Shown: one piece after another, positions 13,578 through 62,574 of the stretch
How positions within the stretch are numbered: position 1 is the first letter of the stretch
How the letters are laid out: the number at the start of each line of letters is the position of its first letter
From: a virus
Direction: 5' to 3' (one strand)
DNA length: 62,574 bases
Virus record (IMG/VR): IMGVR_UViG_3300022752_003914
Coordinates: 1 to 62,574 of that record
Notes under the pieces: model-generated
What the model saw: the letters and a program-made list of their open reading frames with translations, nothing else
What the model was told of the DNA's origin: nothing
Database searches by the model: none
Made by a program: the position numbers and the translations under genes

Positions 13578-13582
13578 CTTTT

Positions 13583-16976: not shown

Positions 16977-16999
16977 CTACTATTTAATAAAACAGCATA

Positions 17000-23090: not shown

Positions 23091-23135
23091 AACTGTTTTA
23101 TCTCCGCAAACATATTTATTGTAAAAAAAATATAA

Positions 23136-23143
23136 TGTAAATA
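23136..23143 (+). promoter_or_regulatory. Late-box variant TGTAAATA
   Basis: One mismatch from TATAAATA, placed 5 nt before the ATG at 23149, the same spacing as the perfect boxes at 11072 and 31307. No ribosome site is visible in front of this ATG. Confidence 0.45.
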
Positions 23144-23148
23144 TCAAT

Positions 23149-24219: not shown

Positions 24220-24221
24220 AA

Positions 24222-31278: not shown

Positions 31279-31306
31279 GTACAATTATTTACTAAAACAA
31301 TAATAT

Positions 31307-38502: not shown

Positions 38503-39356
38503 ATAATTTTTTCTAAAGCATGTGAACTAGGACATAATTTACACTGAGGAATATAGTTTTTAATTTTCACACGAAGGAAATGTTCTATTAAAGATTCATC
38601 AATAGTAGGATCGCAACTTTCATATTTTTCAAATAAGTTCTCATCCAATAAAGTATATTGTTTTGCAAATAAATGTCCAGTACCTACTACAGGACATTTG
38701 TATAAGTTACCTTGAACAATATAATGACAGGTTTTTGCAGGGCAATTTTCATGTACTGTTTTAGCATCATTACTATGAAATTTAATAGTTTTTTGATTAT
38801 ATGAAGTTATTGAATTTTTTATAAAATAGTATTTTCTATATAAATATATTAAATGTTTATTAGTAGATTCACTATAAAATACTATTTTATTCTCATATAA
38901 ATCATTTGGATCAACGTCTTTGATACGATAATTTATTTTTAGTTCTTGCAATATTTCATTAACATTTCTATAAATGTTATCAAAGTCTTTTTCATAGTGT
39001 ACAGCTACTTCTAAAAGATAATTATTTTCTATTGATTTTTTAGCTAAATTTTTATACTTTAGTTTATGAAACAAAGTTCCATTTGTAGATATTGTCATGT
39101 TATTATGCGTAGGCCATAATTTTCTAACATTAATCATCCAATTTTCAAAATCAGGATTAAGATAAGGTTCGCCTCCTAAAATTGATACACGATTAGGATA
39201 AATATATTTTGGCCATAATTCATTTTTAGTTTTATAATCTTTATATTTAAAGTAACCTTTTAAATTAAAGTTATTGAAGCTTAAACAATTACTACAAGAC
39301 AAATTACATGTATTGTTTATATAAAATTGTACTTCAGGTACATTAATTGGAAACAT
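38499..39356 (-). CDS. Radical SAM protein
   Basis: 285 aa. C17-x3-C21-x2-C24 (NTCNLSCSNC) with SILGGEPYLNPD following. C-terminal cysteines in ENCPAKTCHY, YKCPVVG and PQCKLC look like auxiliary cluster ligands. It is paralogous to the next gene (39358-40242) over its full length, and the two are separated by 1 bp. Substrate unknown. Confidence 0.86.
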   Translation of the reverse strand: MFPINVPEVQFYINNTCNLSCSNCLSFNNFNLKGYFKYKDYKTKNELWPKYIYPNRVSILGGEPYLNPDFENWMINVRKLWPTHNNMTISTNGTLFHKLKYKNLAKKSIENNYLLEVAVHYEKDFDNIYRNVNEILQELKINYRIKDVDPNDLYENKIVFYSESTNKHLIYLYRKYYFIKNSITSYNQKTIKFHSNDAKTVHENCPAKTCHYIVQGNLYKCPVVGTGHLFAKQYTLLDENLFEKYESCDPTIDESLIEHFLRVKIKNYIPQCKLCPSSHALEKII

Positions 39357-39357
39357 A

Positions 39358-40242
39358 TTAATTAATAGGATTATACACTTTAACGAAACCTATATCACAT
39401 AATCCACACTGTTTTATAGGTTCATTAATATTTTTTAAAAAATCATACACTTTATTTTTCCCAATTATTGGACTACACGGAACATAATCATTTAATAACA
39501 TATTATGTTTATTTAGCACGTTAAATTGTTTATTAAGTTGTTTGCCAACGGCTACTGCTACACATTTGAATAAATCGCCATCTACAATTATTCCACATGT
39601 TTTAAGGCAACAATTTTCATGTGTTTTAATTGGATCATTATCATGCATTTTAATTAAATTTTTATCGTAAAATTTTATTGAATTTTGAAAAAAAATTTGT
39701 TTTCTTTCAATTGTACCTAACACTTTATTTGTATCTTTATTTCTAAATTTTCTTAAATCTTCAACAATTTTTTTACTAGAATTTTTCGCAAATATAGTAT
39801 ATTCTTCAGAGTGATTTATGTTAGATTCTTTTAAAATATTTAAAAATGATTCATATGCAGGAAGATAATGATTTTCATGATGAATACTAATTTCTATTTC
39901 AAATCCAAGGTTTAAAATTTCTTTTGTAATTTTTTTAACATTTGATTTATGAAATAATGTACCATTTGTAAGTACCGATACATATTTGTCGGGCCATAGA
40001 TTACGTATACCACGTACCCAATTTATTAAATCAGGATTTAAAAAAGTTTCACCTCCTGTAATTTGTACTTTATGAGGATTAATAAAATTAGGCCAAAGTT
40101 TATTTTTACTAAAGTGATCTTCCCATTTTGAATAACCACTAAATCCTTTTATATTACTATACGATATACAATGTGTACAAGATAAATTACAAACATTAGT
40201 TATATGATAAGCTATTTCATTTAAATGAATAGGAAATTCCAA
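39358..40242 (-). CDS. Radical SAM protein (tandem paralog)
   Basis: 294 aa. C18-x3-C22-x2-C25 (NVCNLSCTHC) with QITGGETFLNPD, a GGET variant of the usual GGEP. C-terminal ENCCLKTC, FKCVAVA and KQCGLC are further cluster ligands. Shares SNIKGFSGYSKWEDH-like spacing with its neighbour's LKGYFKYKDY. Together with that neighbour and the exostosin-like gene it forms a unit likely started from the box at 41049-41056. Confidence 0.86.
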   Translation of the reverse strand: MEFPIHLNEIAYHITNVCNLSCTHCISYSNIKGFSGYSKWEDHFSKNKLWPNFINPHKVQITGGETFLNPDLINWVRGIRNLWPDKYVSVLTNGTLFHKSNVKKITKEILNLGFEIEISIHHENHYLPAYESFLNILKESNINHSEEYTIFAKNSSKKIVEDLRKFRNKDTNKVLGTIERKQIFFQNSIKFYDKNLIKMHDNDPIKTHENCCLKTCGIIVDGDLFKCVAVAVGKQLNKQFNVLNKHNMLLNDYVPCSPIIGKNKVYDFLKNINEPIKQCGLCDIGFVKVYNPIN

Positions 40243-48368: not shown

Positions 48369-50687
48369 TCATAATACACATGCATCACAATTTTCATCAA
48401 GTTCTTCCGATGGTTTATATTGTTTATTTTCTTTTACTACGTCCTCTATTTTGGACCCTGATTTATTTATAAGTGAGTAGTAAAAGGTCTTTATACCATA
48501 ATAATGTGCTAACATTAAATTCTTGGCAATAGTTGTAGTTGGTACTTTACGATTTGGAAAATGTGCAGGATTATAAAATGTATTTGTACTAATACTTTGA
48601 TCGACATACGCCTGCAATACTGCTGCTGTTTTCAGATAATTTAAACAATCATTTTGCTCCCACATTAACTGGTACTTATTTTTAAGTTTATGATATTCTG
48701 GAACAACTTGTGTCAAACTAGCAGCTTTACTTTCTTTTACTGTAATTAAACTCATGGGCATTTCAATACCATTCGTACTATTAATAACTACGCTACTACT
48801 TTCTACTGGTGCTATTGCCATTAATGTAGCATTACGAACTCCGTATTTTTTCATGTTTTCACGTAGTATTTCCCAATCTAATTCTGGAGTGAAACTAGCT
48901 AAATCATTCACACCCTTCGCTCTGCGTTCCCATGGGAAAATACCACGCCCATAAAAAGTCTTATCGCTATCTGAACATTTACCACGTTCTTTGGCCAATT
49001 CTACAGTAGCTTCAGTAAGATAATATGCCTGATGCTCCATCCAAGATTTTACTTCTTGTAATGAATCCTTCTGTCCATACTTTAGCCCACGTTTGGCATG
49101 CCAATACGCAAGATTTGTAACACCTATGCCAAGTGGTTGTATTTCATCATTACTTAACTTAGATTGTATAGATAAAAAGTCTTGGTAATCAAGTATATTA
49201 CAAAGGCTACGCTGCAATACACGACAAGCCCTACGCATATCTTCGGGATTACGGAAAGCACCCCAGTTGATTGATCCCAATGTGCATAATGCGATACGGC
49301 CATTACTGTCATCCAAACGCTTAAAGGGCTTAGTAGGAAGTAAAATTTCACAACATAAATTTGACTGATAGATTGTGTGGTAATCAGGATCGAATGGTCC
49401 TTGATTCATTACGTTGTCAATGAATACAAGATAAATTCTACCTGTATCAGTACGCTCCTTTAATATACCACTCTTAAAAACTTCTTCGGCTGACATAGTT
49501 TTCTTACGCAAGCCTTTTTGTTTTTCATATTTTAAATATAATTCCTCAAACTTTTCTGTATTTGAATAGAATACTTCATATAGATCAGGTACTTCATTTG
49601 GATCGAAGAATGTTATATTTTCTTTGTTTTTGAATCTTCTCCAAAAGAAACTCGAAAGGACAACCCCATAATCCATATGTCGGACCCTGGTTTCTTCGGT
49701 TCCTTGATTGTTTTTAAGTACAATAAGATCATCAAACTGATGATGCCAAATAGGATAGAATACAGTAGCACTTGCATTGCGAATACCTCCTTGACTGCAA
49801 CTACGTAAATCACCGAACCACTTCTTTAAAAATGGAATCATACCGGTGTGCATGATTTCACCACCACGAATAGGGCTACCTAGTGGTCTTAATCTACCAA
49901 TCTCTAACCCAATACCAGCACGTTTGCTAGCATACTTAGCCATCATTTCTCCACTAGCAAAGATTGAGTCCAAATCATCATCACTGCGGATAAGAACGCA
50001 ACTACTAAACTGTTTAGTGGGTGTGCCCAAACCAGCCAATACAGGAGTGGCAAGAGTAAATAAACCGTCTGATGCTGCATTATAATACTCCTTAATATAC
50101 TTCATTCTAGCACTATTTGGTTCTTCTTTATGAAACACTGTCGCTGCTGCAATCATATAACGTATTTGGGGTGTCTCATAAATGTCTTTTGTGCTACGAT
50201 TACGCACAAGATATTTTTCAATTAATTGTTCTATTGCAGCATATGAATATTCTTCGTCCTTGCTATGGTCAAGCATATCATTCATTCTATTCCAATCTTC
50301 TAGGGTATACCATTCTAATAACTCTGGAGTGTATAATCCAACATTAATGTTTTTCTTTACAATATCAAATATATGCGGCACATTATAATCGCCGTATACA
50401 TCTTTTCTTAACATACTAAGACGTTGTTTTCCTGCCACATATTGATAATTGGTATGCCCAATGATTGGGTTATGCTCTACATCAATTAAATTTACTACTG
50501 CACGTAATGTAATTTCATCTATTTCTCTTGTAGAGATTCCATCATAAAAGTGTGGTTGTGCTTTTATTTCTATCATACTTTGGCTAACATCTGCTATTCC
50601 ATTACATATGTTTGTTATTTGTGCTTGCCATTTTTCTAAATTTAATAGTTCTTTCTGCCCTGACCTTTTTATAACTTGTATTTGCAT
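48369..50687 (-). CDS. nrdA: Ribonucleotide reductase class Ia, large subunit
   Basis: 772 aa, full length. An N-terminal ATP-cone (about 1-95) is present. Active-site cysteines are visible in FSSCVLIRSDD, QSNLCCEIL and IALCTLGSINW. Radical-transfer tyrosines lie in KTFYYSLI near the end, and the C-terminal redox pair is ENCDACVL. It converts ribonucleoside diphosphates to deoxy forms for phage DNA synthesis. GGGAT precedes the ATG by 5 bases, and a promoter lies at 50707-50735. The operon continues with nrdB and glutaredoxin. Confidence 0.97.
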   Translation of the reverse strand: MQIQVIKRSGQKELLNLEKWQAQITNICNGIADVSQSMIEIKAQPHFYDGISTREIDEITLRAVVNLIDVEHNPIIGHTNYQYVAGKQRLSMLRKDVYGDYNVPHIFDIVKKNINVGLYTPELLEWYTLEDWNRMNDMLDHSKDEEYSYAAIEQLIEKYLVRNRSTKDIYETPQIRYMIAAATVFHKEEPNSARMKYIKEYYNAASDGLFTLATPVLAGLGTPTKQFSSCVLIRSDDDLDSIFASGEMMAKYASKRAGIGLEIGRLRPLGSPIRGGEIMHTGMIPFLKKWFGDLRSCSQGGIRNASATVFYPIWHHQFDDLIVLKNNQGTEETRVRHMDYGVVLSSFFWRRFKNKENITFFDPNEVPDLYEVFYSNTEKFEELYLKYEKQKGLRKKTMSAEEVFKSGILKERTDTGRIYLVFIDNVMNQGPFDPDYHTIYQSNLCCEILLPTKPFKRLDDSNGRIALCTLGSINWGAFRNPEDMRRACRVLQRSLCNILDYQDFLSIQSKLSNDEIQPLGIGVTNLAYWHAKRGLKYGQKDSLQEVKSWMEHQAYYLTEATVELAKERGKCSDSDKTFYGRGIFPWERRAKGVNDLASFTPELDWEILRENMKKYGVRNATLMAIAPVESSSVVINSTNGIEMPMSLITVKESKAASLTQVVPEYHKLKNKYQLMWEQNDCLNYLKTAAVLQAYVDQSISTNTFYNPAHFPNRKVPTTTIAKNLMLAHYYGIKTFYYSLINKSGSKIEDVVKENKQYKPSEELDENCDACVL

Positions 50688-50702
50688 ATTTTATCCCGTC
50701 TT

Positions 50703-50797
50703 AAGTAGTATACATTGAAAATTTGAATGAATCAATATTTAGCGGGTATAAACAACTTATACACGCTACATATTTTACTGCCTGTAATATACTACTT
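50703..50797. repeat. Nested inverted repeats before nrdA
   Basis: A perfect 10-bp inverted repeat, AAGTAGTATA at 50703-50712 and TATACTACTT at 50788-50797, flanks a smaller hairpin (GTATAA/TTATAC with GCG/CGC extension) near 50743-50767. The left arm includes the -10 box of the nrdA promoter. Such symmetry suggests regulation or a transcript-end structure for the GT9 gene, whose stop codon lies in the right arm. Confidence 0.45.
50707..50735 (-). promoter_or_regulatory. Sigma70-like promoter for nrdA-nrdB
   Basis: Minus strand: TTGATT at 50735-50730, 17-bp spacer, TATACT at 50712-50707. The start of nrdA is about 20 bases downstream. Matches consensus less well than the tRNA promoters but has the same geometry. 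Confidence 0.65.
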
Positions 50798-51694
50798 TTT
50801 AACTGTTTTCTTAATATGTTTTATAATATTATTACATAAGTCTTTGATTTCCTTATCAGATAAATTCATTAATTTATCATTATTAGCCTCTGCGATATAT
50901 CTATCGAAGTCAGCTAACCCATAGGGCATATAATCACGTTCTTTATCATTTACAATATTAAAGTGATCAGGATATGTAAAGTTTGTAGTATTAGAACCTC
51001 CCATAACCACAGTACCTGGAATATTAAAACTACGTGCAAAATGTTGTCCTGAACCATCTACTCCTAAGAAGTAATCACATTGTGACAAAATAGATGCCAG
51101 CGAACGAACATCAGTAGGCCATAGTTGAATAAAATCTGTTGGACTCAGTACAGGAATATCTCTATCAGTAATCAACCAAATACCATATCCTTGAAGTTTT
51201 AATCTCTTTATTATTTCTTTGCATAACTTAAGTCTCATAGACCTACAAGATTTATCCTTAACTTCATTTTCTAAGAATTCGACATCTTTACTAAATGGTT
51301 GAAAAGCAATTATGGTATTAAAATAATTTCTTTTCACACTTAATCCAACTTTACTTTCATGTTCCTGTATATACATTTTTGGAACAGGCATAGGATCTTT
51401 ATCACCGTTGATTTCTTGATTCCAAGCATCAACAAGATGAATTTTTCCATTTAAAAAATCAATATTGTAATAAGGGTCTGGTTTAATTATTTTTGTATTT
51501 TTAATTCTATTAAAAAGGTCTTTAGTATGATTATCAAAAATAAAATTAGATAATTTTTTATTGCCCCAAAAAATTGGGCCAAATTCATGCACTACTATTG
51601 TACAATCTGGGTTATTTGTTACAAACTTTTCTAAAGCTGGAATAGATGTAAAAACCTTACTCAATTCGCCTTCAATAATTAATGTTTTTTTCAT
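50792..51694 (-). CDS. GT9-type (heptosyltransferase-like) glycosyltransferase
   Basis: 300 aa. The C-terminal half has LASILSQCDYFLGVDGSGQHFARSF, the diagnostic segment of family 9 enzymes (usually D-S-G-P-x-H-x-A), then PGTVVMGG. The first half is less conserved, with a KKTLIIEGELSKVF start. GT9 enzymes add heptoses to LPS core, but phage members may act on other glycans. It is the last gene of the unit with the two oxygenases upstream, overlapping one of them by 4 bp. Confidence 0.78.
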   Translation of the reverse strand: MKKTLIIEGELSKVFTSIPALEKFVTNNPDCTIVVHEFGPIFWGNKKLSNFIFDNHTKDLFNRIKNTKIIKPDPYYNIDFLNGKIHLVDAWNQEINGDKDPMPVPKMYIQEHESKVGLSVKRNYFNTIIAFQPFSKDVEFLENEVKDKSCRSMRLKLCKEIIKRLKLQGYGIWLITDRDIPVLSPTDFIQLWPTDVRSLASILSQCDYFLGVDGSGQHFARSFNIPGTVVMGGSNTTNFTYPDHFNIVNDKERDYMPYGLADFDRYIAEANNDKLMNLSDKEIKDLCNNIIKHIKKTVKK

Positions 51695-52296
51695 AATTTA
51701 CATTCCGTTAATGTTTTATCGTGCCCTAATATACCATAGGGAAAGGTATTAAAACTTATACTTACTCTAGTCTGATCTACCTGTACAGCATCTACTCGGT
51801 GTGTTGTACCTGAGGGAAAAAGAAGTAATGTGTTTTCCTCTGCTTCAAACCACCAATCATCACTATTAAATTGATTAAATGTTTCTGTTGGTATTTCTAG
51901 TTGTTTGTATTCAGCTTTAAGAAAATAAATTCTATCTGTAGCAAGATCACTTTGTAGATAAAAAACACCACTTATAAAGCTATTTGGATGAGCATGAGCA
52001 TGATGCCATTGTCCTTTCTCACTATAGTTAGCCCAACATTGTGTTATACGTAAAGATAGTGGATTTATAGGAACATAAACATTTTTTAAAAATGTTTCTA
52101 CACTGTTTTCAAAAAACTTTTTTAATCTGTTCATTTTTTTATGTTCTAATAAGTAATGATCAGCACTTGTCATATTACCTTGATTTGGTCTGCGTTCTAG
52201 CGAAAGAATAAAATCTTTTTCAGTTTTTGTGACAGGTTTATCCAATTTAAATATTCCAATTGGTTTTGGAAATAAACTATAAATTTGAAAATTCAT
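51691..52296 (-). CDS. 2OG-Fe(II) oxygenase (cyanophage-type)
   Basis: 201 aa from the ATG at 52296 (TAATG with the previous stop). WHHAHAHPNSFISGVFYL provides HxH-type ligands, KAEYKQLEIP and WWFEAEENTLLLFPSGTTHRV the distal His, and RVSISFNTFP the Arg. This is the classic putative 2OG-Fe(II) oxygenase of cyanophages. It sits beside two P4H-type genes and upstream of GT9, near the tail fibre genes. Confidence 0.85.
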   Translation of the reverse strand: MNFQIYSLFPKPIGIFKLDKPVTKTEKDFILSLERRPNQGNMTSADHYLLEHKKMNRLKKFFENSVETFLKNVYVPINPLSLRITQCWANYSEKGQWHHAHAHPNSFISGVFYLQSDLATDRIYFLKAEYKQLEIPTETFNQFNSDDWWFEAEENTLLLFPSGTTHRVDAVQVDQTRVSISFNTFPYGILGHDKTLTECKL

Positions 52297-52892
52297 TACC
52301 AACTCCAACTTACATAACTATATCTTATACCTTTAGTAACAGGTTTTACACCATGTGGAAATAAAAAATTGCTTGGAAAAATAACAAGTCCACCTTCTTT
52401 TAAGTCTAATGGTTCATCATTCAATATAAATAATTGACCACCTTCATAATTATTATTAAGACTTCCCAAAATAGTTAATATAGGTACACCTTTATTAACC
52501 CCATCAAATAAAGTTTGTATATGATCACAATGTTTCCTCATTTCTGTTCTAACATCATATCTATTCCATCTGATCGGTGAAAAATCCTGTAAGGCGCCAA
52601 ACCAATTTATATTTATGTAGGATAGATAATCTTTTAAAGCAAAACTTATTTTTTGTTCTATTATAGTTTTTTCTGATATTTCATCACTAGAAATATGTAG
52701 GTCGTTTTCATACTGCGTATTTTTATTTGTTATATGGTCATTATAGCTATGTTTACTCCAAGGAATTTTGTTAAGTTTTTTAACAACTTTTTTACAAAAA
52801 TTTGGCTCTAAAAAATCATTATATAACTTTATATAATCTTTTAGATTATAAGATAGCCCGTCTAATTTTATATTTTGATTATGAATTATCAT
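52296..52892 (-). CDS. 2OG-Fe(II) oxygenase, P4H-like
   Basis: 198 aa. RKHCDHIQTLFDG carries HxD, ILGSLNNNYEGGQLFI the core strand, FLFPHGVKPV the distal His, and IRYSYVSWSW the Arg. All expected catalytic residues are present. Its paralog at 52929-53456 has lost the distal His, so the pair may be one active and one inactive copy. Confidence 0.85.
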   Translation of the reverse strand: MIIHNQNIKLDGLSYNLKDYIKLYNDFLEPNFCKKVVKKLNKIPWSKHSYNDHITNKNTQYENDLHISSDEISEKTIIEQKISFALKDYLSYININWFGALQDFSPIRWNRYDVRTEMRKHCDHIQTLFDGVNKGVPILTILGSLNNNYEGGQLFILNDEPLDLKEGGLVIFPSNFLFPHGVKPVTKGIRYSYVSWSW

Positions 52893-52928
52893 AGCAATAT
52901 TTACTTTGCTACAACTTCACTAAAAAAA

Positions 52929-53456
52929 TTAATATACCCAAGAAATATAACTGTACCTAGTACCTTTAGTTACTTTAGTTATAAAATATGGATACAAAAA
53001 GTTACCAGGAAACATTACGATTTGACCCTTTTTAAATTTAAGTGGTTCATCTATTAACATAAATTCTCCACCTTCAAAATCATCATTTAATAGTCCTATT
53101 ACTGTAAAAATTGGATTATTTGTTTGTCCATCATCGCCAGTTACACTATTATGGTCACACCTAATTTCCATTTTTTTATTTGATTTAATTCTATTAAATT
53201 TGACCATTGTATGTCCGTTATATTGAGTGAACCATGGGTAATTTCCACTGTACACATAATTTTTTATTATAGGATCTAAACTTCTAGTAATATTCCACTC
53301 GATTTCTGTATTTGATAAGTATGAAGTTTCAATACCATTTTCTTTTTTCCACTGAGTGGTGTCTTTTGTTAATAGTTCTAAAGCTTGATCACAGAATTCT
53401 AATTCTGTAAATTCAAACATTTTAATAAAATTAATTAAATTGGGCTGTAATATCAT
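52929..53456 (-). CDS. Degenerate 2OG-Fe(II) oxygenase-like protein
   Basis: 175 aa. Aligned to the neighbouring P4H-like protein: EIRCDHNSVTGD replaces RKHCDHIQ, so the first ligand His is Arg, and FLYPYFITKV replaces FLFPHGVKPV, so the distal His is Tyr. The fold-defining VIGLLNDDFEGGEFML and TRYSYISWVY are well kept. It is probably unable to bind iron normally, yet the frame is open and tightly coupled to its neighbour (4-bp overlap), so it may have a binding or regulatory role. Confidence 0.75.
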   Translation of the reverse strand: MILQPNLINFIKMFEFTELEFCDQALELLTKDTTQWKKENGIETSYLSNTEIEWNITRSLDPIIKNYVYSGNYPWFTQYNGHTMVKFNRIKSNKKMEIRCDHNSVTGDDGQTNNPIFTVIGLLNDDFEGGEFMLIDEPLKFKKGQIVMFPGNFLYPYFITKVTKGTRYSYISWVY

Positions 53457-53854
53457 ATATCACCATAAATTTCTAACGTTGTATTTAATAAATTGTCTTG
53501 TACCCAAATCATATTTTCTTCATCCCAATAATATGTATTTCCATCATTGGGTTCAGGAATAGGAGCTGCCCAATCTTTTGTAATAGGGTCAATTGACCAA
53601 CTTGGAAATGGTTTAGGTAATAAAAATACATCAAGGTCAGGATCATAAGTGCCGCCTATAACTGCATACCGTGCTCTAATATTATTATTATAGCTTGTTT
53701 GTTTGTAGATTTTATCTTCACCAAACAAGTTTTTAAGATATTCTATACCTATATGTTCGTGTTCAATACCATTGTCATCTACCACATCATTGTTATCTAC
53801 TTTAACAACATTAATAACAATATTATTATTATCTAATTCTGCAAAATGTGCCAT
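53453..53854 (-). CDS. Tail-fibre-associated conserved protein (MAHFA family)
   Basis: 133 aa from the ATG at 53854. MAHFAELDNNNIVINVVKVD at the start, then YKQTSYNNNIRARYAVIGGTYD and a proline-rich section (PKPFPSWSI, PIPEPNDG) and WDEENMIWVQ at the end. The protein at 59987-60361 has the same layout. Homologs in cyanophages are found beside fibre genes. I infer a fibre-assembly or adhesin role, without a known mechanism. Confidence 0.7.
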   Translation of the reverse strand: MAHFAELDNNNIVINVVKVDNNDVVDDNGIEHEHIGIEYLKNLFGEDKIYKQTSYNNNIRARYAVIGGTYDPDLDVFLLPKPFPSWSIDPITKDWAAPIPEPNDGNTYYWDEENMIWVQDNLLNTTLEIYGDI

Positions 53855-53856
53855 TT

Positions 53857-54894
53857 TTAATTCCAAGTAAAAGAACCTGCACCTGTAAATGTGTGGAATG
53901 TATATCCGCCACTAGTTGATACACTACCACCTGTTGCAATTTGTGGTCCTGGATAACCTACAATAACAATACCTGATCCACCTGCTCCACCTACTCCGCC
54001 TCTACCAGACCCACCGCCTCCACCTGTATTAGGTGAACCAGCTTGGCCTGTATTGGCGGGAGTATTTGCAGCACTACCACCGCCTCCTGATCCACCGCCT
54101 CCTGCAAATCCACCAGAAGGAGGGCTCCCTCCCCCAGTACCACCGCCACCGCCCCCTACCGTAACAATAGATCTCCAAGTTATACCAGACCCGCCTGCGC
54201 CTCCCGTCCCTGGCGCAGGTTGAGTACCTCCAGCTGCTCCAATCCCGCCACCACCTCCGCCAACACCTGGACGACCCACACCCCCCGCATTACCTTGCGT
54301 AACTGCAACTCCTTGATTACCCGTAGCTGCTCCTCCTGGCCTAGTAATGGGAGGGCTTGATAAATTACTACCTCCACCGCACCCACCAGTGCCTCCTATG
54401 TTTGGAGCTATACCAAAAACTCCGCCACCTCCGCCACCTAATCCTGACATTGTACCAAAAGGTCCTGATAAAGATGAATTTCCACCAGTACCGCCTACCA
54501 ATGGTGTACCGCCAGGTGGATATCGTCCAGCGCTGCCGCCCCCGCCGATGCTAACAGGAAAACTGCCTCCTGGACTGTAAGGGATGACTACAGCAGAAGG
54601 ATTGACACCACTTCCAAACGGTGAATTTATATTTGTACGAATACTACCAGCACCACCTCCTCCACCAGTGTTAGCACCACCTCCTCCACCGCCAGCTACA
54701 ATCATGTATTCAGCAACAATAGCAGGACCAGGAGATTTACCATAAAAATCGCTCATTTTAATAGTACCAGAAGGAACACCTGCTAATGTTCTATATGTGG
54801 GACTGTTAATACTACTGTTAGGATTGGTTCCTGATACTCCTAATTCAACGTTAATTGCATTAAATGATATCGGCCCCGATGGTGGTAATACCAT
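53857..54894 (-). CDS. Glycine-rich tail adhesin
   Basis: 345 aa. The first 50 residues (VLPPSGPISFNAINVELG, TYRTLAGVPSG, DFYGKSPGP) are an N-terminal module known from phage fibre proteins. From about 65 to 320 the protein is dominated by glycine runs (GGGGGG, GGGGSGG) broken by short Pro/Asn/Ser blocks, which in phage adhesins form polyglycine-II helix bundles. The end SGGYTFHTFTGAGSFTWN is a typical beta-strand finish. Likely receptor-binding tip. Its coding strand is GC-rich because of GGN codons. Confidence 0.82.
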   Translation of the reverse strand: MVLPPSGPISFNAINVELGVSGTNPNSSINSPTYRTLAGVPSGTIKMSDFYGKSPGPAIVAEYMIVAGGGGGGANTGGGGGAGSIRTNINSPFGSGVNPSAVVIPYSPGGSFPVSIGGGGSAGRYPPGGTPLVGGTGGNSSLSGPFGTMSGLGGGGGGVFGIAPNIGGTGGCGGGSNLSSPPITRPGGAATGNQGVAVTQGNAGGVGRPGVGGGGGGIGAAGGTQPAPGTGGAGGSGITWRSIVTVGGGGGGTGGGSPPSGGFAGGGGSGGGGSAANTPANTGQAGSPNTGGGGGSGRGGVGGAGGSGIVIVGYPGPQIATGGSVSTSGGYTFHTFTGAGSFTWN

Positions 54895-54895
54895 T

Positions 54896-56503
54896 TTACT
54901 CTCCTTTCTCTACACAATTGACATAAACAACATTTGATGAAGTACTAAAACATTCATACTTTTTAAGTTCTTCAACTTGACTTGATAATTCTTTAATACC
55001 CTCTACAAGTAAAGGTATGACTTTTTCATACCAAATTGTGTAATATTTATCATCAATAGGTGCCGTTGTTACAACTTCTGGTAAAATATTTAACATTTCT
55101 TGTGCGCTTAATCCTACTTCACGCTGTTTACTATAACCCAATGATACTGCAACATCATTGGCTTCATAAAAGAAACCTTGTAGTTGTTTTATTTTAGCTA
55201 AAGCATTTTCAATATTTCCTAATTTTGTTTTTAATCTATCATCAGAATAATAAGCTGTTATATTATTTGTAGCACGAATTTCTCCTGTCACTGCTGAACC
55301 TGCTGTACCAACTCCCAAACTATTAAATTGCACATCATTACTTGTACCTAAACTTTGTGGAGTAGATAATGTAATAGTTCCTGCACCATTGGTAACTGTT
55401 ATTTGGTTTGCAGTACCTGTTATACCTGCTGCTACATATGTAGTGCCGTTACCAATTGGAATTTGTCCGTTAGTTGGAGTGGATGTTATACCCAAACCAC
55501 CTCTTCCCACACCTAATGTACCTGTAGCTATGTTACTAGCATTAAGTTGACTTAGACCATTTCCATTACCAGTAATTAAATCAGTAACATTTAATGTACC
55601 ATTAATATTTGCCCCTGTACTTGTAAATATTACTTCGTTTGCAGAACCACCTATGCTAAAATTAATATTACCATTAGCAGTTGGTATATTAATATTACTA
55701 TTTCCATTTGCTAAAGGAAATGATACACTAGCAGATATACCTGTTAATTGACTACCATTACCTATATAAAAATTAGCAGTAATATTACCATCGGCATTTC
55801 TTTGTACAATCGTATTTGCTGTAGCTGATTGACTTGGAGTATTTCCTTGTAACGCATTTGAGTTAAGATTGGCTACAACTGTAGTTGAAGTTACGACTAA
55901 AGGAGCTGTGCCTGTAGATACGTTACTTATCAGTTGCGGAGCAGTAACATTTGCTGTTGCTAGTACCTGTGCTGTTCCCAAATTATTTACGTTGGCATTA
56001 CCTGTTGCGTTTAATGTTCCTGTAACATTAACACCTGTAGCAGTTGTAATTAAAACATTAGCTGTACCACCAACGCTTATGTTTATATTACCATTTGCTG
56101 CAGGTGCATTAATATTACTATTTCCATTAGCTAATGGAAAACCTGCACTTGCAGATATACCTGTTAGTTGGCTACCATTACCTATATAAAAATTAGCAGT
56201 AATATTACCATCGGCATTTCTTTGTACAATCGTATTTGCTGTGGCTGATTGACTTGGAGTATTTCCTTGTAACGCATTTGCGTTTAAATTTGCAACTACA
56301 GTTGTTGATGCAACAACAAATGGTGCAGTTCCTGTTGTTACGTTTGATTCTAATGTACTTGCAACAACTTTTGTTGCATTAAGATTACCTACATTGGCAT
56401 TAGCCGTACCTATAGAGAACAATCCGTTGGCTGTTATTGTTGTTATATTGGATATTGCTTGTGTGTCGGAAATAACAATATTTCCAGTGACTTTTATTGC
56501 CAT
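54896..56503 (-). CDS. Tail fibre with C-terminal S74 chaperone domain
   Basis: 535 aa. Two near-identical 140-aa repeats carry ATANTIVQRNADGNITANFY and IGNGSQLTGIS, predicted as repeated beta-structure of a fibre shaft. The C-terminal part, YYSDDRLKTKLGNIENAL, QGFFYEANDV, VGLSAQEMLNILPEVV and a coiled coil (IKELSSQVEELKKYE), is the intramolecular chaperone/S74 autoprotease domain that trims itself after trimerisation. Second gene (in transcription order the first) of the fibre cassette. Confidence 0.88.
   Translation of the reverse strand: MAIKVTGNIVISDTQAISNITTITANGLFSIGTANANVGNLNATKVVASTLESNVTTGTAPFVVASTTVVANLNANALQGNTPSQSATANTIVQRNADGNITANFYIGNGSQLTGISASAGFPLANGNSNINAPAANGNINISVGGTANVLITTATGVNVTGTLNATGNANVNNLGTAQVLATANVTAPQLISNVSTGTAPLVVTSTTVVANLNSNALQGNTPSQSATANTIVQRNADGNITANFYIGNGSQLTGISASVSFPLANGNSNINIPTANGNINFSIGGSANEVIFTSTGANINGTLNVTDLITGNGNGLSQLNASNIATGTLGVGRGGLGITSTPTNGQIPIGNGTTYVAAGITGTANQITVTNGAGTITLSTPQSLGTSNDVQFNSLGVGTAGSAVTGEIRATNNITAYYSDDRLKTKLGNIENALAKIKQLQGFFYEANDVAVSLGYSKQREVGLSAQEMLNILPEVVTTAPIDDKYYTIWYEKVIPLLVEGIKELSSQVEELKKYECFSTSSNVVYVNCVEKGE
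55741..56280 (-). repeat. Direct repeat in tail fibre gene
   Basis: Blocks 55741-55860 and 56161-56280 differ at only about three positions and lie exactly 420 bp apart, giving two 140-codon repeats. The high DNA identity points to recent duplication or gene conversion. Confidence 0.9.
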
Positions 56504-56572
56504 CTTCGCTCTCCTAAGAACTCGGCATCAAAAGTTATTAAACAATTGATACTAATATAATATTTAGTCCAA

Positions 56573-58936
56573 TTAGGGTACTTTTACCACTTCTCGCAAA
56601 TCTCTCTCAATTAAATTTTTAAAATGTTCGGGAATATCATTTCTATCTTTCATTAATAACAATGATTCTTTTGATTGTTTGTAAAAACTATTGTACCAAG
56701 CTGTAATTGCTTTAAAATATTCTAGTCCATATATTCCAGGATATTGTAAATTTGTCAATGGTTTAGTAGTATCTGTTGAAACAGATAAACCAATAGTAGC
56801 GTATAAATAACTTGCTTGATAATCTTTATTGTTATAATGATGTTCTGCAAACAAATAGTAAGCTTCAGGTCGTTTAGGATTTACTGTGATTGCACGATTA
56901 TACAATCCAGCTACGGTAAAATTTCTATTTTTTTGATGTTCAAAACATTTAGCCATTTTAATCAAAGATTCATATTGTAAATCAATATCTTCAGTTCTTT
57001 CTGCTGCTCTTAGATAGTAACTTACTGCTGCTGCTGTTTGTCCTTGATTATGATAATCTACTCCTAACCAAAAATTAGTAATTGGGTTGTTAGGATCATC
57101 AATAAATTTTTGTAAATTATTAAATTTTTGCTCCACTTTAATAGGGTTAGGAAATAAAAACTTTTCTACATTTGGTAAATCAAATATTTGTTTAGGCAAC
57201 AAACTTCTATCATATTTTTTGTATAAATTACGTTTTGCTTTTAATGGTTTAGTCAACTCTTTTTCTAACAAAGATGCTGTTTCATTTGACAGGTTATTAA
57301 CAGCGTCTAAGTTCCCTGAATGACCATAATTAGTTGCTTTAAGTAATTTGCTTGTAGTATCACCCATCCAAGTAAAATGCCAACCTAAATCCTCTACACG
57401 CTTATTATTTTCTGCAATATAAACAACTGGATAACTTTGTTGCATTCCTGATCTGTAAGTGTTGGGTCTTTGTTTTCTAAGATGACTTGGTAATGCAAAA
57501 TACATTGATTTATCCCACGGTATATTGTTACCTGCCTCATCAACTAATCTATGATCCCCTTGTCCTTCTAACAAAACCAATGGTATCTTTATTAATTTAT
57601 CAGGATTTTCTCTAGTTAACCTTGACAAGTATTCTACATGATTAGGATTAATTATCTCATCAATATCGCTAATTATGAAAACTGTATCTTCATCAAATTC
57701 ATTAAAAACGTGATGTAAACTATCTCTCTGAAGTCTTTCCCTTACCCAAGCTAATACACTCTTACTATCATTTGCCATATCAGAATGAATAGTATCAATA
57801 GGTAATATCTCTTTAGACAAATCTCTTGTTTGAAAGTCATTTTTTAATACTCTTACTTTAGTTTTGTCAATTTTTAATTTATCAAAATGCTTTTCTAAAG
57901 AAAACTCTTTTTTCTTACCAGCAAAAGTTACGTTTGATTCACTCACAATAAACAAATCTACTACATCTTTAAGCATATTATATCGTAACTCAAACAATTC
58001 TATTTCGTTAAAATACATAGTGTAGTCAACTATCTTAATTTTCTTAAATTCAGGTAGTAAAAAGTTTCTAACTCTAGGTAATTTAAAAATTTCTTTTGGT
58101 AATAATTCCGTAGGGTATGGTTTAATATGGTAATTATATTTGGAACCAATTTCTTTATACTCACCACTAAGTATTTTTTTTGTTTCAGCACTTAAATTGT
58201 TAATATGTTCAATAGCTGCACTATGCAATGTTGATTGAAGCTTTAGTCTTTTACGTTCTATATCTCCCATCCAAGTAAAATGCCAACCTAAATCTTCAAC
58301 AACAACACCATTTTCTGTGATTGTAATAGCAGGGTATGGATTTTCAAATTCGCTTCGTAAACTAGCAAAACCTTTTGTTTTAACTTGTTGCTTAGTACAA
58401 AACATTAATGACCTATTCCATTGTACAGGTATATTGTTTTCATCATATACTCTACGGTCAGCACTTCCTTCTAACAAAACAATTGGAATCTTAATTATAT
58501 TATTTGGATGTTCGCTTGATACTGTAGCAATATATCTTACTGCATCAGGTTTAGGAATTTCATCAACATCACTATGCATAAAGATAGTATCATCAGGAAA
58601 CTTGTCAATTATATCTAATAAGGCATCTTTTTGTTTACGCAACCTAGTAAAATTTTTAATACTACTTAATTTTTCTATTCTTCTTGCATCATACGCATCT
58701 AATGGATGTGTGTCTAAGTGTTCATCACTTGTATTTACCTCTAATACAATGAATTTATCCATATCTAAACCAAGCTCTTTAATAAGCTTAGTTCCTGTAA
58801 ATGGTTTAGGAATACCAGTAAACGTATGATTTGCTTCGCTTATAACAAAATAATCAACAACATCCTTTAGCATATGATAACGCAGTTCTAACAATTCTGC
58901 GTCATTATTAAACATAAAATTATCAACAATAATCAT
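56573..58936 (-). CDS. Double GT17-like glycosyltransferase with TPR tail
   Basis: 787 aa. Two homologous GT17-type (MGAT3-like beta-1,4-N-acetylglucosaminyltransferase) domains: the first from MIIVDNFMFNNDAELLELR with VDYFVISEANHTFTG and FMHSDVDEIPKP, the second from IKIVDYTMYFNEIELFELR near residue 298 with VDLFIVSESNVTFAG and FIISDIDEIINP. Both keep the DxDE metal motif and WHFTWMGD. From about 610 the C-terminus is helical with TPR-type repeats (YHNQGQTAAAVSYYLRAAER, LYNRAITVNPKRPEAYYLF). It sits between two fibre cassettes and may decorate the fibre or virion. Confidence 0.85.
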   Translation of the reverse strand: MIIVDNFMFNNDAELLELRYHMLKDVVDYFVISEANHTFTGIPKPFTGTKLIKELGLDMDKFIVLEVNTSDEHLDTHPLDAYDARRIEKLSSIKNFTRLRKQKDALLDIIDKFPDDTIFMHSDVDEIPKPDAVRYIATVSSEHPNNIIKIPIVLLEGSADRRVYDENNIPVQWNRSLMFCTKQQVKTKGFASLRSEFENPYPAITITENGVVVEDLGWHFTWMGDIERKRLKLQSTLHSAAIEHINNLSAETKKILSGEYKEIGSKYNYHIKPYPTELLPKEIFKLPRVRNFLLPEFKKIKIVDYTMYFNEIELFELRYNMLKDVVDLFIVSESNVTFAGKKKEFSLEKHFDKLKIDKTKVRVLKNDFQTRDLSKEILPIDTIHSDMANDSKSVLAWVRERLQRDSLHHVFNEFDEDTVFIISDIDEIINPNHVEYLSRLTRENPDKLIKIPLVLLEGQGDHRLVDEAGNNIPWDKSMYFALPSHLRKQRPNTYRSGMQQSYPVVYIAENNKRVEDLGWHFTWMGDTTSKLLKATNYGHSGNLDAVNNLSNETASLLEKELTKPLKAKRNLYKKYDRSLLPKQIFDLPNVEKFLFPNPIKVEQKFNNLQKFIDDPNNPITNFWLGVDYHNQGQTAAAVSYYLRAAERTEDIDLQYESLIKMAKCFEHQKNRNFTVAGLYNRAITVNPKRPEAYYLFAEHHYNNKDYQASYLYATIGLSVSTDTTKPLTNLQYPGIYGLEYFKAITAWYNSFYKQSKESLLLMKDRNDIPEHFKNLIERDLREVVKVP

Positions 58937-58937
58937 A

Positions 58938-59939
58938 TTAACCTATCTTAATAAATTGCGGTAAAAGAGATTTTGGCATTTTTAAAATAAATGCTGCGTT
59001 ATCTTGAAACCCAAAACTAATCAGTAAATTATCTTTATATTCTGCCATACCAGCACAAAACTCTATTTCACCTGTCATGAAATGAAACATTTCACTTGTA
59101 GCAGTTAAATTATAATTTTTATCCCAATATACGAACCTATGACGATATTTTCCGTCTTTTCTACCTTGTATATCGTTATAAAGATTTACTTCATGTGTAA
59201 TTGCGAGATGTCCATCTTGCCAAGGAATAACTTGACTACTACCTCTTAGATCATTAGGTAGTGGTAACCTTTTTGATTCATCTAATATAACTGTTGTACA
59301 TGTATTATCAACAATATTTGCGTATACAACTTCAGTAGGATTAGTCCATTTTACAAAATGATATGGTTTATCATTTATGGGCATCCAATTTTTTTCACAA
59401 TAGCTTAAGTTTTTACCTGGAGCTGGTATTTTATGTCTGTTAACTTCTTTTACATAATCCAAACCAATTTCAATTTCTTGTAATTGCATACGGCCTGAAC
59501 CTTTAGTATTATCATCTCTACGTACACCACACAAATAATATTTGTTATCCCATTTAAACAATCTGCAATCTTCTAGACCAATAAAGTGCCATTGTGGTTG
59601 TTGGTCTAATTTTGATGTATCTACTTTATGAAATTGCTCCATTTCTAAATTTTCATTAAACCTCAACAAAAAATTCTTTGTTGTTAATGTCATATCATTT
59701 TCAGGGTGCAAATATTGTAATGGGCCCCATGGGTGAGCAAAAACTTTAGTTTCGCTATGATATAATGTGTAGTTTATATGTCGTAGATTACATAAAATTT
59801 TGTCATTATCAACAAAAATTGATGGATTCATCAAACCAGTACCACCTGTATATTCTTCTGGTAATATAATAGGGTGTATTGAACCACCATTTTCTATAAT
59901 ATATTTTACAATACCTTTTTCAGCTATATTTTTATCCAT
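58938..59939 (-). CDS. Beta-propeller glycosidase/phosphorylase-like protein
   Basis: 333 aa. Signatures: NPSIFVDNDKILCNLRH, FIGLEDCRLFKWDNKYYLCGVRRD, KNWMPINDKPYHFVKW, RGSSQVIPWQDGHLAITHEV and EFCAGMAEYKDNLLISFG. Repeated blades with an E-D-x-R motif are typical of five-bladed propellers of the GH43/GH130 type and of related uncharacterised plant and phage proteins. Whether it cleaves or only binds a glycan is unknown. Located next to the double GT17 gene. Confidence 0.5.
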   Translation of the reverse strand: MDKNIAEKGIVKYIIENGGSIHPIILPEEYTGGTGLMNPSIFVDNDKILCNLRHINYTLYHSETKVFAHPWGPLQYLHPENDMTLTTKNFLLRFNENLEMEQFHKVDTSKLDQQPQWHFIGLEDCRLFKWDNKYYLCGVRRDDNTKGSGRMQLQEIEIGLDYVKEVNRHKIPAPGKNLSYCEKNWMPINDKPYHFVKWTNPTEVVYANIVDNTCTTVILDESKRLPLPNDLRGSSQVIPWQDGHLAITHEVNLYNDIQGRKDGKYRHRFVYWDKNYNLTATSEMFHFMTGEIEFCAGMAEYKDNLLISFGFQDNAAFILKMPKSLLPQFIKIG

Positions 59940-59986
59940 ACTTATCTCAAGATTACCTTTTATTTAGTGCTTAAAATAGTCTATGA

Positions 59987-60361
59987 TTAAAAATGAACTT
60001 CTTTCCAAACTTGATTAACTTCGTCCCATTCGTAATTTATTGTATCGGTAGGTTCGGGCACAGGAATAGGTGGATCCCAATCATAAGTAGATAAATTTAA
60101 TATCCAACTTGCAAATGGTTTAGGTGGTATAAAAGCATCTAATATTGCATCATATGTATAGCCTATGCCTGCATAGTTTCCTCTAAAGTTTTTATTATAG
60201 CTTGTTTGTTTCCAATTAGTGTGACCACCTGACCACTTAATCAAAAAGTTTATACCTAAGGATTCTTGTTCTATTCCATTTTCATCAAGTAATACATTAT
60301 TGTTAACTACGTTGACTTCAATAACAATATTATTTTCATCTAATTTTGCGAAATGTGCCAT
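59987..60361 (-). CDS. Tail-fibre-associated conserved protein (MAHFA family), copy 2
   Basis: 124 aa. MAHFAKLDENNIVIEVNVVNN, WKQTSYNKNFRGNYAGIGYTYD, PKPFASWIL and YEWDEVNQVWKEV correspond point for point to the protein at 53453-53854. It directly follows a Gly-rich adhesin gene, the same context as copy 1. Confidence 0.72.
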   Translation of the reverse strand: MAHFAKLDENNIVIEVNVVNNNVLLDENGIEQESLGINFLIKWSGGHTNWKQTSYNKNFRGNYAGIGYTYDAILDAFIPPKPFASWILNLSTYDWDPPIPVPEPTDTINYEWDEVNQVWKEVHF

Positions 60362-60363
60362 AA

Positions 60364-61155
60364 TTAAAAAAGGATTGATCCATTACCTGTAAATGTATAA
60401 GTTACATAACCTGCATCGTATGTAATTGAGGGAGCTCCTGTAGTTTCCACTGCTAATCTAAAATTAAGTGGATATCTAATTACAACGATACCTGATCCAC
60501 CTGATCTTGATGGAGTTGGAGAAGAAAGAGGACTTCCTGCTCCTCCACCAGTGAATGCTGCACCATTTACCGGACCAAGTCCTCCTCCCCCTTTGGCAGG
60601 ATTAGTACCTGGTCCACCGCCTCCACCTGCATACCACCCTCCAGTTATAGGACTTTGTAATCCGTCTCCTCCTTTTCCTCTGTTAGCGAGTCCAGGAGAA
60701 GGTGGACCTGGCGTTGCGCTGCCACCTGCCTCACCTGCACCACCGCCTCCACCTGAAGTTGGTCCAGAGGATGTTAAATTTGCCCCACCATTGTTACCTT
60801 GCCCAGGTGTTCCAGGTCCTCCTGACCTGGCTGGTGGACCTCCAGGTGCACCACCGCCACTTCCACCGCTAGCATTAGTACCAGCACCTCCACCTATCGC
60901 TATTTGGGTGTGAAAACTACTATTAGAACCATTTACGGATCCTGTTCCACCACCACCTACAGTAATATTATATAAAGTACCAGGTACTATAGTCAAAAAG
61001 GTATTGTTAATCATTCCACCTCCACCACCTCCTCCAGTTGAATACGATGTTCCTCCACTTCTTGAAGGAGAGCCGCCGCCACCTGCTACAACTAAACACT
61101 GTACAAAAGGCGGGGGGGAAGTATTTGTTAGTGAAGATAATGCTATTCCTGTCAT
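60364..61155 (-). CDS. Glycine-rich tail adhesin, copy 2
   Basis: 263 aa from the ATG at 61155 (ATGA with the preceding gene). After a short N-terminus come CLVVAGGGGSPSRSGG and many poly-Gly blocks up to GGGLGPVNGAAFTGGGAG, then SGIVVIRYPLNFRLAVE and YVTYTFTGNGSILF, the same kind of beta finish as copy 1 (SGIVIVGYPGPQ). It lacks the VLPPSGPISF module of the first adhesin; the preceding collagen-like gene may supply that role. Confidence 0.8.
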   Translation of the reverse strand: MTGIALSSLTNTSPPPFVQCLVVAGGGGSPSRSGGTSYSTGGGGGGGMINNTFLTIVPGTLYNITVGGGGTGSVNGSNSSFHTQIAIGGGAGTNASGGSGGGAPGGPPARSGGPGTPGQGNNGGANLTSSGPTSGGGGGAGEAGGSATPGPPSPGLANRGKGGDGLQSPITGGWYAGGGGGPGTNPAKGGGGLGPVNGAAFTGGGAGSPLSSPTPSRSGGSGIVVIRYPLNFRLAVETTGAPSITYDAGYVTYTFTGNGSILF

Positions 61156-61679
61156 AAAACTGATCCTGTTACAAAACAAGTATTTGCTGTTGTAAATAGT
61201 ACGCTGGCAACACCACGTGTTAATAAAGTAAGACTTGCATAGTCTGCATTTATCCCTGTTATATATGCAGTATTAATATTACATGTTATTGTAACATTAC
61301 CTGCTGTATTATTTACAATAGTAATAATATCACCTGATACAAAGGTATTATTAGGTATAATTATACTTCCTCCGGAATCTACTTGAACAAATTTACCTAC
61401 ATCCGTAGTTGCAAGAGTGTAACTACTTACTTGATTTCCAACCGCTGGAATATTAATAAATCCTGTTCCTTGTAGCCCTTGTGTGCCTTGACTACCCCCA
61501 CCTTGTAAACCTTGTAAACCTTGTGCTCCTTGAATACCTTGTGTTCCTTGACTGCCTCCACCCTGTAAACCTTGTCTACCTTGTGCTCCTTGTAGGCTTT
61601 GCACTCCCTGTAGTCCCTGAACCCCTTGAGCTCCAACATAACTGCCACTTAATAAATCTGCTATGCTAATGGAAGACAT
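61152..61679 (-). CDS. Collagen-like phage protein
   Basis: 175 aa. From about residue 15 to 75 it has Gly-x-Gln triplets (GVQGLQGVQSLQGAQG...), as in phage collagen-like fibre modules. The rest is beta-rich: YTLATTDVGKFVQVDSGG, IIIPNNTFVSGDIITIVNN and FTTANTCFVTGSVL, a trimeric receptor-binding-like domain known from fibre tips. Few proline or lysine residues occur in the triplets, so classical collagen hydroxylation sites are scarce. Confidence 0.8.
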   Translation of the reverse strand: MSSISIADLLSGSYVGAQGVQGLQGVQSLQGAQGRQGLQGGGSQGTQGIQGAQGLQGLQGGGSQGTQGLQGTGFINIPAVGNQVSSYTLATTDVGKFVQVDSGGSIIIPNNTFVSGDIITIVNNTAGNVTITCNINTAYITGINADYASLTLLTRGVASVLFTTANTCFVTGSVL

Positions 61680-62574
61680 TATTTTTCCTTATTATTTGTT
61701 TTATTTATAAGATTTTTTTGCAAATCTTTTATGATTTCTGATTGTTGTTTTACTGCTTCAACAAGTAATGCTATAATACCGTTGTAAGATACTGTTTTAT
61801 CTCCATTATCCGTTGTATTTACTAGTTCAGGTAAAACTTTTTCTACATGTTGAGCAATAACACCCACACTTGCTTTACCTGAATCTGCAAACTTAAATTT
61901 CCATCCTGATATCGCTGCAAGTAAATCTAATGGATTGGACAATTGCTCAAAATCAGTTTTTAATCTCACATCAGACAATGTATTTACATTTGTAGCAGAT
62001 AAATCACCTGTACTTGGATTAAAGTATAATTTTGTTGTTGTTACAGTAGCGGTTTGTGAACTACCTGCTGCTGATACCATTACTGGATAAAAACTTGCAT
62101 TGGTTGTTATATCATTAGTTGCGTTAATAGAAGTTCCTGGTCCTGCTGCACCCTGTAAACCTTGTGTACCTTGGATACTTTGTAGACCTTGTGTTCCCTG
62201 CGTTCCTTGTGTACCTGCTCCTGTCAATCCCTGTAAACCTTGTGTACCTTGGATACTTTGTAGACCTTGTGTTCCCTGCGTTCCTTGTGTACCTGCTCCT
62301 GTCAATCCCTGTAAACCTTGTGTGCCCTGTGTACCTTGTAGACCTTGCAAACCCTGTACACCTTGTGCTCCTTGAGTTCCTTGTGTACCTGCTCCTGTTA
62401 ATCCCTGTAAACCTTGTGTACCTTGTATACTTTGTAGACCTTGTGTTCCTTGTGTTCCTTGCGTTCCTTGTGTTCCTGCACCTGTTGATCCTTGAATCCC
62501 TAAAAGTCCCTGTACACCCTGTACACCTTGTGTACCTTGAATACTTTGTGGACCTTGCAGACCTAGTAATCCTT
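61679..62574 (-). CDS. Collagen-like tail fibre with S74 chaperone, partial
   Basis: At least 298 codons, running off the right edge of the window; a TTG at 62350 within the frame is not the real start because Gly-x-Gln triplets continue upstream without interruption. The N-terminal visible part is a long collagen-like region ([19 protein letters not shown]). The C-terminus is [45 protein letters not shown] and a helix, i.e. the S74 intramolecular chaperone seen also at 54896-56503. Confidence 0.85.
62151..62384 (-). repeat. 78-bp tandem repeats in collagen-like region
   Basis: Near-identical units of 78 bp (26 codons, Gly-x-Gln plus GLTGAG) begin at 62151, 62229 and 62307, with a related unit after 62403. 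Such DNA-level identity favours length variation of the fibre by recombination. These are coding repeats, not CRISPR. Confidence 0.85.

Follow-up and report, generated by a model that had tools for sequence, protein, structure and literature searches.

Why would a virus carry the same succession of tail-fibre genes twice, and what does the small gene that closes each set do? The question is raised by the virus record IMGVR_UViG_3300022752_003914 of IMG/VR, from a virus of water bacteria, which we analysed over its whole length of 62,574 bases (the window; coordinates are counted on that stretch). The record is classed as linear and is therefore probably a fragment. Two cassettes, all of whose genes lie on the minus strand, run from a fibre with a C-terminal S74 domain through a glycine-rich protein (GLY1 and GLY2) to a small protein of the family phrog_7759, here called MAHFA (MAHFA 1 and MAHFA 2), and between them lie two genes for putative sugar enzymes. 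In our preferred reading, which we hold with a probability of roughly 0.66, each cassette would encode a single tail-fibre tip together with a chaperone dedicated to folding it, the two tips would be used in parallel, and the enclosed enzymes would form an independent module.

Cassette 1 consists of the S74 fibre (54896–56503; S74 38.5 bits, cut-off 22), GLY1 (53857–54894; Gly_rich_2 24.7 bits, cut-off 24.3), which is extended at its N-terminus by a module of some 55 residues and matches phrog_2295 and phrog_26817 in PHROGs, and MAHFA 1 (53453–53866). Cassette 2 opens with a collagen-like fibre with GLQGTQG repeats and a C-terminal S74 domain (61679–62574), the gene being cut by the end of the window; the fragment matches the Pfam families Collagen (53.6 bits) and Peptidase_S74 (47 bits, cut-off 22), and its homologue on a related contig, L168, is at least 1072 amino acids long and likewise cut by the contig end. 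There follow COLb (a short stalk protein, collagen-like and conserved in its C-terminal domain; 61152–61679; Pfam Collagen 17.7 bits, under the cut-off), GLY2 (60364–61152, with an in-frame TTG at 61179 as an alternative start; Gly_rich_2 68.5 bits, cut-off 24.3) and, after a spacing of 2 nucleotides, MAHFA 2 (59987–60361). The two MAHFA proteins match phrog_7759 with E-values of 2.8e-41 and 1.1e-47. Both fibres combine an S74 domain above the Pfam cut-off with SDxRLK, which we take to be the motif of that domain (SDDRLK at 420 in cassette 1, SDVRLK at residue 200 of the cassette 2 fragment). The genes, coordinates, strand and cassette order given in an earlier note on this DNA are thus confirmed, and Pfam and PHROGs agree with it on the kinds of gene. 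The cassette 1 fibre also contains a 300-nucleotide direct repeat, 83% identical (55590–55889 and 56010–56309), its shaft having been lengthened by internal duplication.

The earlier note had called the receptor-binding cassette duplicated, a description that holds for the architecture and fails for a recent copying event. MAHFA 1 and MAHFA 2 are 54% identical (E 4e-34) and the S74 ends of the two fibres 35% (E 5e-15); between GLY1 and GLY2, BLASTP with composition adjustment finds no significant likeness (E 0.7), and their kinship is therefore drawn from the family profile. With proteins of other viruses, MAHFA 2 reaches up to 68% identity. In a tree of 86 MAHFA proteins the two window copies were grouped in 0% of 200 bootstrap trees: MAHFA 1 was placed with copies from L168 and from two further contigs, L169 and L048, and MAHFA 2 elsewhere, its exact place being weakly supported. 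Because the alignment has few columns (118) and several long branches meet, we used the tree for the separation of the copies alone. Since the MAHFA copies stand apart in the tree and L168 carries both cassettes in the same order, the cassettes are not the product of a recent copying event.

Both sets are nevertheless kept. L168, another IMG/VR record, resembles the window gene by gene (S74/collagen fibre, COLb, glycine-rich protein, MAHFA, propeller, GT17-TPR protein) and continues in the same order with an S74 fibre, a glycine-rich protein, MAHFA and three oxygenases; since this order is identical, the arrangement is not an accident of assembly. In L169, a rearranged relative, two MAHFA genes flank the same enzymes. 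The reading frames are intact in both cassettes, and the ratio of non-synonymous to synonymous substitution rates (dN/dS) between the window and L168 is at most 0.43 for all 14 genes, these ratios being rough with dS at 0.9 to 2.8, near saturation. Given their retention in L168 and the low dN/dS, both cassettes are old and maintained, and the proposal of two receptor-binding sets stands. That the sets are alternative to one another finds no such backing: all their genes lie on one strand, and a search for inverted repeats from 50,000 to 62,574 returned one pair only, an overlapping palindrome inside MAHFA 1, so that switching of the cassettes by inversion was rejected.

What, then, does MAHFA do? 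Its association with glycine-rich genes was counted in three samples, the first and second drawn from viral contigs with different MAHFA queries (contigs may overlap between them) and the third from bacterial-genome contigs by profile. The first comprised 88 distinct MAHFA sequences of 97 open reading frames (ORFs), used a windowed glycine measure, allowed an overlap of up to 90 nucleotides with the upstream gene and omitted L001, L002 and L088, three loci that belong to the window or to the L168 contig; in the other two the overlap allowed was up to 120 nucleotides. The gene directly before MAHFA has a glycine-rich domain in 74/88, 37/49 and 20/21 cases, against a background of 24/1174, 16/341 and 5/175 (2–5%) among the remaining genes of these loci, counted where an upstream neighbour exists; an earlier glycine criterion gave a glycine-rich upstream gene for 70 of 93 MAHFA ORFs. 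The 14 failures of the first sample include one without an upstream ORF by our rule and several with contig-end cuts or an intervening oxygenase gene; in the second, eight MAHFA genes are preceded by another gene and four by none, and the sole failure of the third is a contig-end cut. The bacterial-genome contigs with MAHFA are nearly all metagenome-assembled, and for that reason they point to no cultured host. The reverse count (a glycine-rich gene followed by MAHFA) is biased in MAHFA-selected loci (42/49) and finds no glycine-rich cases at all in loci selected by propeller or GT17, and was not used as evidence. Three contigs (L007, L030 and L052) have at least two glycine-rich genes in tandem with one MAHFA after the last, which suits a chaperone role. 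In S-SM1, a 350-amino-acid protein with 29% glycine is followed in order by MAHFA, two annotated 2-oxoglutarate (2OG)-Fe(II) oxygenases and one annotated leprecan. A C-terminal domain of the COLb type precedes the glycine-rich gene in 20 of the 74 positive cases of the first sample, making COLb a candidate connector for the glycine-rich tip.

In the nearly identical phages Melnitz (L083) and Melnitz-3 (L192), where identical proteins flank a variable stretch, MAHFA and the glycine-rich tip are gained or lost together in two places, and this natural experiment supports the pairing rule. At the first site Melnitz has a 404-amino-acid glycine-rich fibre with MAHFA, and Melnitz-3 a 291-amino-acid fibre, 93% identical over the first 102 residues, with a different tip and no MAHFA. 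At the second site it is Melnitz-3 that has a glycine-rich protein (324 amino acids) with MAHFA, and Melnitz that has a 220-amino-acid protein with 9% glycine and a 74-amino-acid protein not matching MAHFA. The available text of the Melnitz paper (PMC9004378) reports altered gene lengths in the variable stretch for one isolate and an identical host range across three strains. Among the replacing genes of Melnitz-3 is one annotated as a tail assembly chaperone.

Predicted folds point in the same direction. The GLY2 model, with a predicted local distance difference test score (pLDDT) of 89.8, matches residues 94–280 of the fibre gp24 of phage Pam3 (two entries, Z 10.2 over 148 residues and Z 10.1) and, at Z 10.1, a tail-tip chain of Bxb1, the next-best row being the unrelated ALK (Z 4.5). 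It has the gp24-type fold of a tumour necrosis factor (TNF)-like domain plus a glycine-rich domain, and a profile match to the gp24-type tip (E 0.0034) is partly compositional. The MAHFA 2 model has a pLDDT of 94.3; among 65 chains aligned by VIA-align, the only one with Z of at least 2 was Pam3 gp25 (chain a, residues 3–57; Z 6.0, root-mean-square deviation 1.9 over 55 residues). Each match is moderate alone, yet two adjacent genes of the window name, each independently, two adjacent genes of one solved complex (PDB 7YPX; PMC9608196), in which, as with GLY2 and MAHFA, the glycine-rich tip gene stands directly before that of the small partner, fibre then chaperone. Mu Tfa was not among the VIA-align rows for MAHFA, nor S16 gp38 among those for GLY2, and neither absence is evidence. 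MAHFA gave only chance-level matches to solved structures by sequence and profile, and its relatives had no match beyond chance in Pfam; in BFVD, none of 14 matches to the model at E ≤ 0.001 has a functional name. The window departs from Pam3 in having separate shaft and tip genes, in two sets. Predicted GLY2 contains no helix and is without the helical docking domain found at the N-terminus of gp24, and where gp25 has its helical bundle, the C-terminal half of predicted MAHFA is rich in beta strands.

From the observed gene order, its conservation in a relative, the intact frames, the pairing of MAHFA with glycine-rich genes and the Melnitz exchange, together with the predicted folds of GLY2 and MAHFA, we infer a mechanism in which the glycine-rich protein would be the receptor-binding tip, with a TNF-like base and a stack of glycine-rich loops that contact the host at their ends, as in Pam3 gp24. 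The S74 fibre, joined in cassette 2 by COLb, would be the shaft on which this tip docks; having no docking domain of its own, GLY2 would require such a partner. The putative N-terminal beta-sandwich of MAHFA, a client-binding domain in gp25 and Mu Tfa, may grip the glycine-rich end during folding of the tip, in the manner of Pam3 gp25, and MAHFA would probably be released afterwards. The virus would make two different tips in parallel, and the propeller–GT17-TPR pair would be an independent sugar-enzyme module lodged between them. The pairing counts, the models and the Melnitz exchange make MAHFA most likely an assembly chaperone of the glycine-rich tip and not an adhesin; it is Tfa-like in this proposed working, yet it is not filed as a Tfa member because the helical C-terminal domain is absent.

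Between the cassettes of the window, L168 and L169 sit a propeller protein apparently related to GH130 phosphorylases (PROP, 58938–59939) and a double GT17 glycosyltransferase of 787 amino acids with a C-terminal TPR region (56573–58936). The latter matches Glyco_transf_17 in two stretches (94.8 bits, cut-off 26), and its GT17 halves are 42% identical, with SDVDEI at position 121 and SDIDEI at position 422 (numbering from 0). The propeller appears only distantly GH130-like: PF04041 scores 12.8 bits in the window copy, below the cut-off of 26; of 56 aligned relatives, 30 match it, at best with E 4.8e-6. Comparison of the propeller with solved structures by sequence and profile gave nothing usable. 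In the 80 propeller loci among the matches listed, which are not exhaustive, the next gene carries a TPR region in 72 (67 TPR, five TPR with GT17), and of the loci 17 contain S74, 34 have collagen-like repeats and one has MAHFA; on account of this pairing and the near absence of MAHFA, we regard the propeller–TPR pair as a mobile module of its own. A free-standing module also suits the possibility that the enclosed enzymes alter the surface polysaccharide of the host during infection, for example excluding other phages, their position among fibre genes being that of a hypervariable island. The glycosyltransferases of the pelagimyophage host recognition cluster are so read in the available text of their description (PMC7029224), and we consider this a serious alternative, at somewhat less than even odds.

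That the enclosed enzymes might instead decorate the fibre proteins before assembly, as the earlier note had supposed, and might do so with the oxygenases downstream of cassette 1, seems to us unlikely. It is true that in the window, L168 and L169 alike the enzymes sit within the fibre cluster, and that collagen-like repeats neighbour hydroxylase-like genes. TPR regions are, moreover, able to present protein substrates. Against this, the propeller–TPR pair is widespread without MAHFA among the matches listed, and those collagen repeats that can be seen contain little proline or lysine, offering few sites for classical collagen hydroxylation. The oxygenase neighbours, all on the minus strand and outside the cassette proper, are a 2OG-Fe(II) oxygenase-like protein (52929–53456; 28.1 bits in Pfam, cut-off 27), a prolyl-4-hydroxylase-like oxygenase with its ligands kept (52296–52892; 2OG-FeII_Oxy_3 43.3 bits) and an oxygenase of another family (51691–52308; 2OG-FeII_Oxy_5 73.8 bits). 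The first has lost both iron-binding histidines: here and in its L168 counterpart (11438–11959) Arg replaces the first and Tyr the second, with an intact paralogue beside, and by its sequence it is probably a conserved pseudoenzyme. Of the 97 MAHFA ORFs, 21 have a 2OG-oxygenase-like gene no more than 2.5 kb away, a point in favour of decoration, and such genes are commoner company than the propeller pair. In phage HTVC008M (L087), a tail-region cluster (12814–21163) has five annotated 2OG-Fe(II) oxygenases and one tryptophan halogenase.

Several observations weigh against a tip chaperone. The MAHFA of L169 directly follows a 1760-amino-acid fibre without a glycine-rich domain, and gene 183 of Melnitz-3 has a glycine-rich end followed by a gene other than MAHFA. 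Past residue 43 the MAHFA model consists of strands only, the Tfa-type C-terminal alpha-helical trimerisation domain being absent; a Z of 6.0 over 55 residues is attainable by unrelated proteins, Foldseek alone placed the model against the PDB with a best E of 1.6, and profile–sequence comparison of MAHFA with gp25 gave no match. Between the window and L168 the MAHFA proteins are 46% and 64% identical and the tips 70% and 59%, which would suit an exposed part. The last point bears on the possibility that MAHFA remains on the virion as a structural subunit of the tip, at the end of the glycine-rich protein, and itself touches the receptor, like T2-type gp38 on gp37 or Mu Tfa on its fibre. MAHFA 1 is the fastest-diverging gene in cassette 1 (its 46% is the lowest of 14 gene pairs), the C-terminal half is the most variable in both copies (identity by quarter 0.83, 0.77, 0.50, 0.45 in copy 2 and 0.56, 0.56, 0.41, 0.32 in copy 1), and its exchange together with the tip speaks for this reading as well. 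The sole structural match, however, is to a chaperone that, according to the available text, was undetected in Pam3 virions (PMC9608196), and several tandem tips share one MAHFA; we hold a structural role to be rather improbable. The gp24 and gp25 matches, the pairing counts and the Melnitz exchange likewise make MAHFA less likely as the receptor-binding part that the earlier note had seen in it than as an assembly chaperone. Distinctly improbable, in our view, is an adhesin finishing line in which two tips would be folded by a new class of beta-rich chaperone, their shafts or tips hydroxylated by the 2OG oxygenases and glycosylated by the GT17-TPR and GH130-like enzymes; the inclusion in it of one catalytically dead oxygenase partner is equally so. 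That one cassette has decayed or fallen silent, named in the earlier note as what would refute its proposal, is very improbable indeed, no supporting point having been found and the intact frames, the S74 motifs, purifying selection in both cassettes and their joint retention in L168 all speaking against it.

One tip with its own chaperone in each cassette, which we continue to prefer, has parallels in known systems. Salmonella phage S16 and T2-type phages have a separate glycine-rich tip gene, gp38, beside the long fibre gene, and the available text of the Pam3 paper compares gp24 with S16 gp38 (PMC9608196). In the Alteromonas phages V22 and A5, fibre and cognate chaperone move together among unrelated marine phages, as far as the available texts describe them (PMC7289586, PMC10579305); the one on A5 (PMC10579305) makes no mention of a glycine-rich tip, no occurrence of the word glycine having been counted in it, and the likeness is one by description. 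The pelagimyophage host recognition cluster is similarly a variable fibre cluster with glycosyltransferases in T4-like aquatic phages, the word "glycine-rich" being absent from its available text (PMC7029224). Unlike that cluster, the one in the window adjoins a ribonucleotide reductase gene, with no neck gene seen there: the three oxygenase-like genes (51691–53456) are followed downstream by a 300-amino-acid protein without a Pfam match and then by the reductase.

Elsewhere the window encodes 17 transfer RNA genes and both ribonucleotide reductase subunits (the small recognised by Pfam, the large by tblastn). The regions 12618–31284 and 38499–40242 contain ten ORFs with a Radical_SAM match at E ≤ 1e-3, of which eight exceed the Pfam cut-off; interspersed with these ten are three Asp/Asn hydroxylase-like ORFs (21150, 22317, 32001) and epimerase, aminotransferase-like and arginine-deiminase-like ORFs, a set of modifying enzymes that is very dense for a virus. 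The T4 late-promoter-like TATAAATA occurs 16 times in the window where 24 matches would be expected, for which reason operon boundaries could not be drawn; counts of sigma-70-like and terminator-like sequences in the window are at chance level. A near-DNA search of the region against 50,697 phage records gave no match, nor did tblastn with GLY2 in the same records, there probably through low-complexity filtering.

The family phrog_7759 lacks an assigned function, and our literature search found no published account of MAHFA. It has at least 596 relatives in viral contigs, occurs also in cultured marine phages and is common in aquatic viruses; the new element here is the function proposed for it. 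If MAHFA is a tip chaperone, the gene next to each MAHFA gene would be flagged as encoding a receptor-binding tip. In uncultured aquatic viruses this would give a simple genomic mark by which to find the genes for host recognition, and it would tell which helper to co-express with glycine-rich tips for their study.

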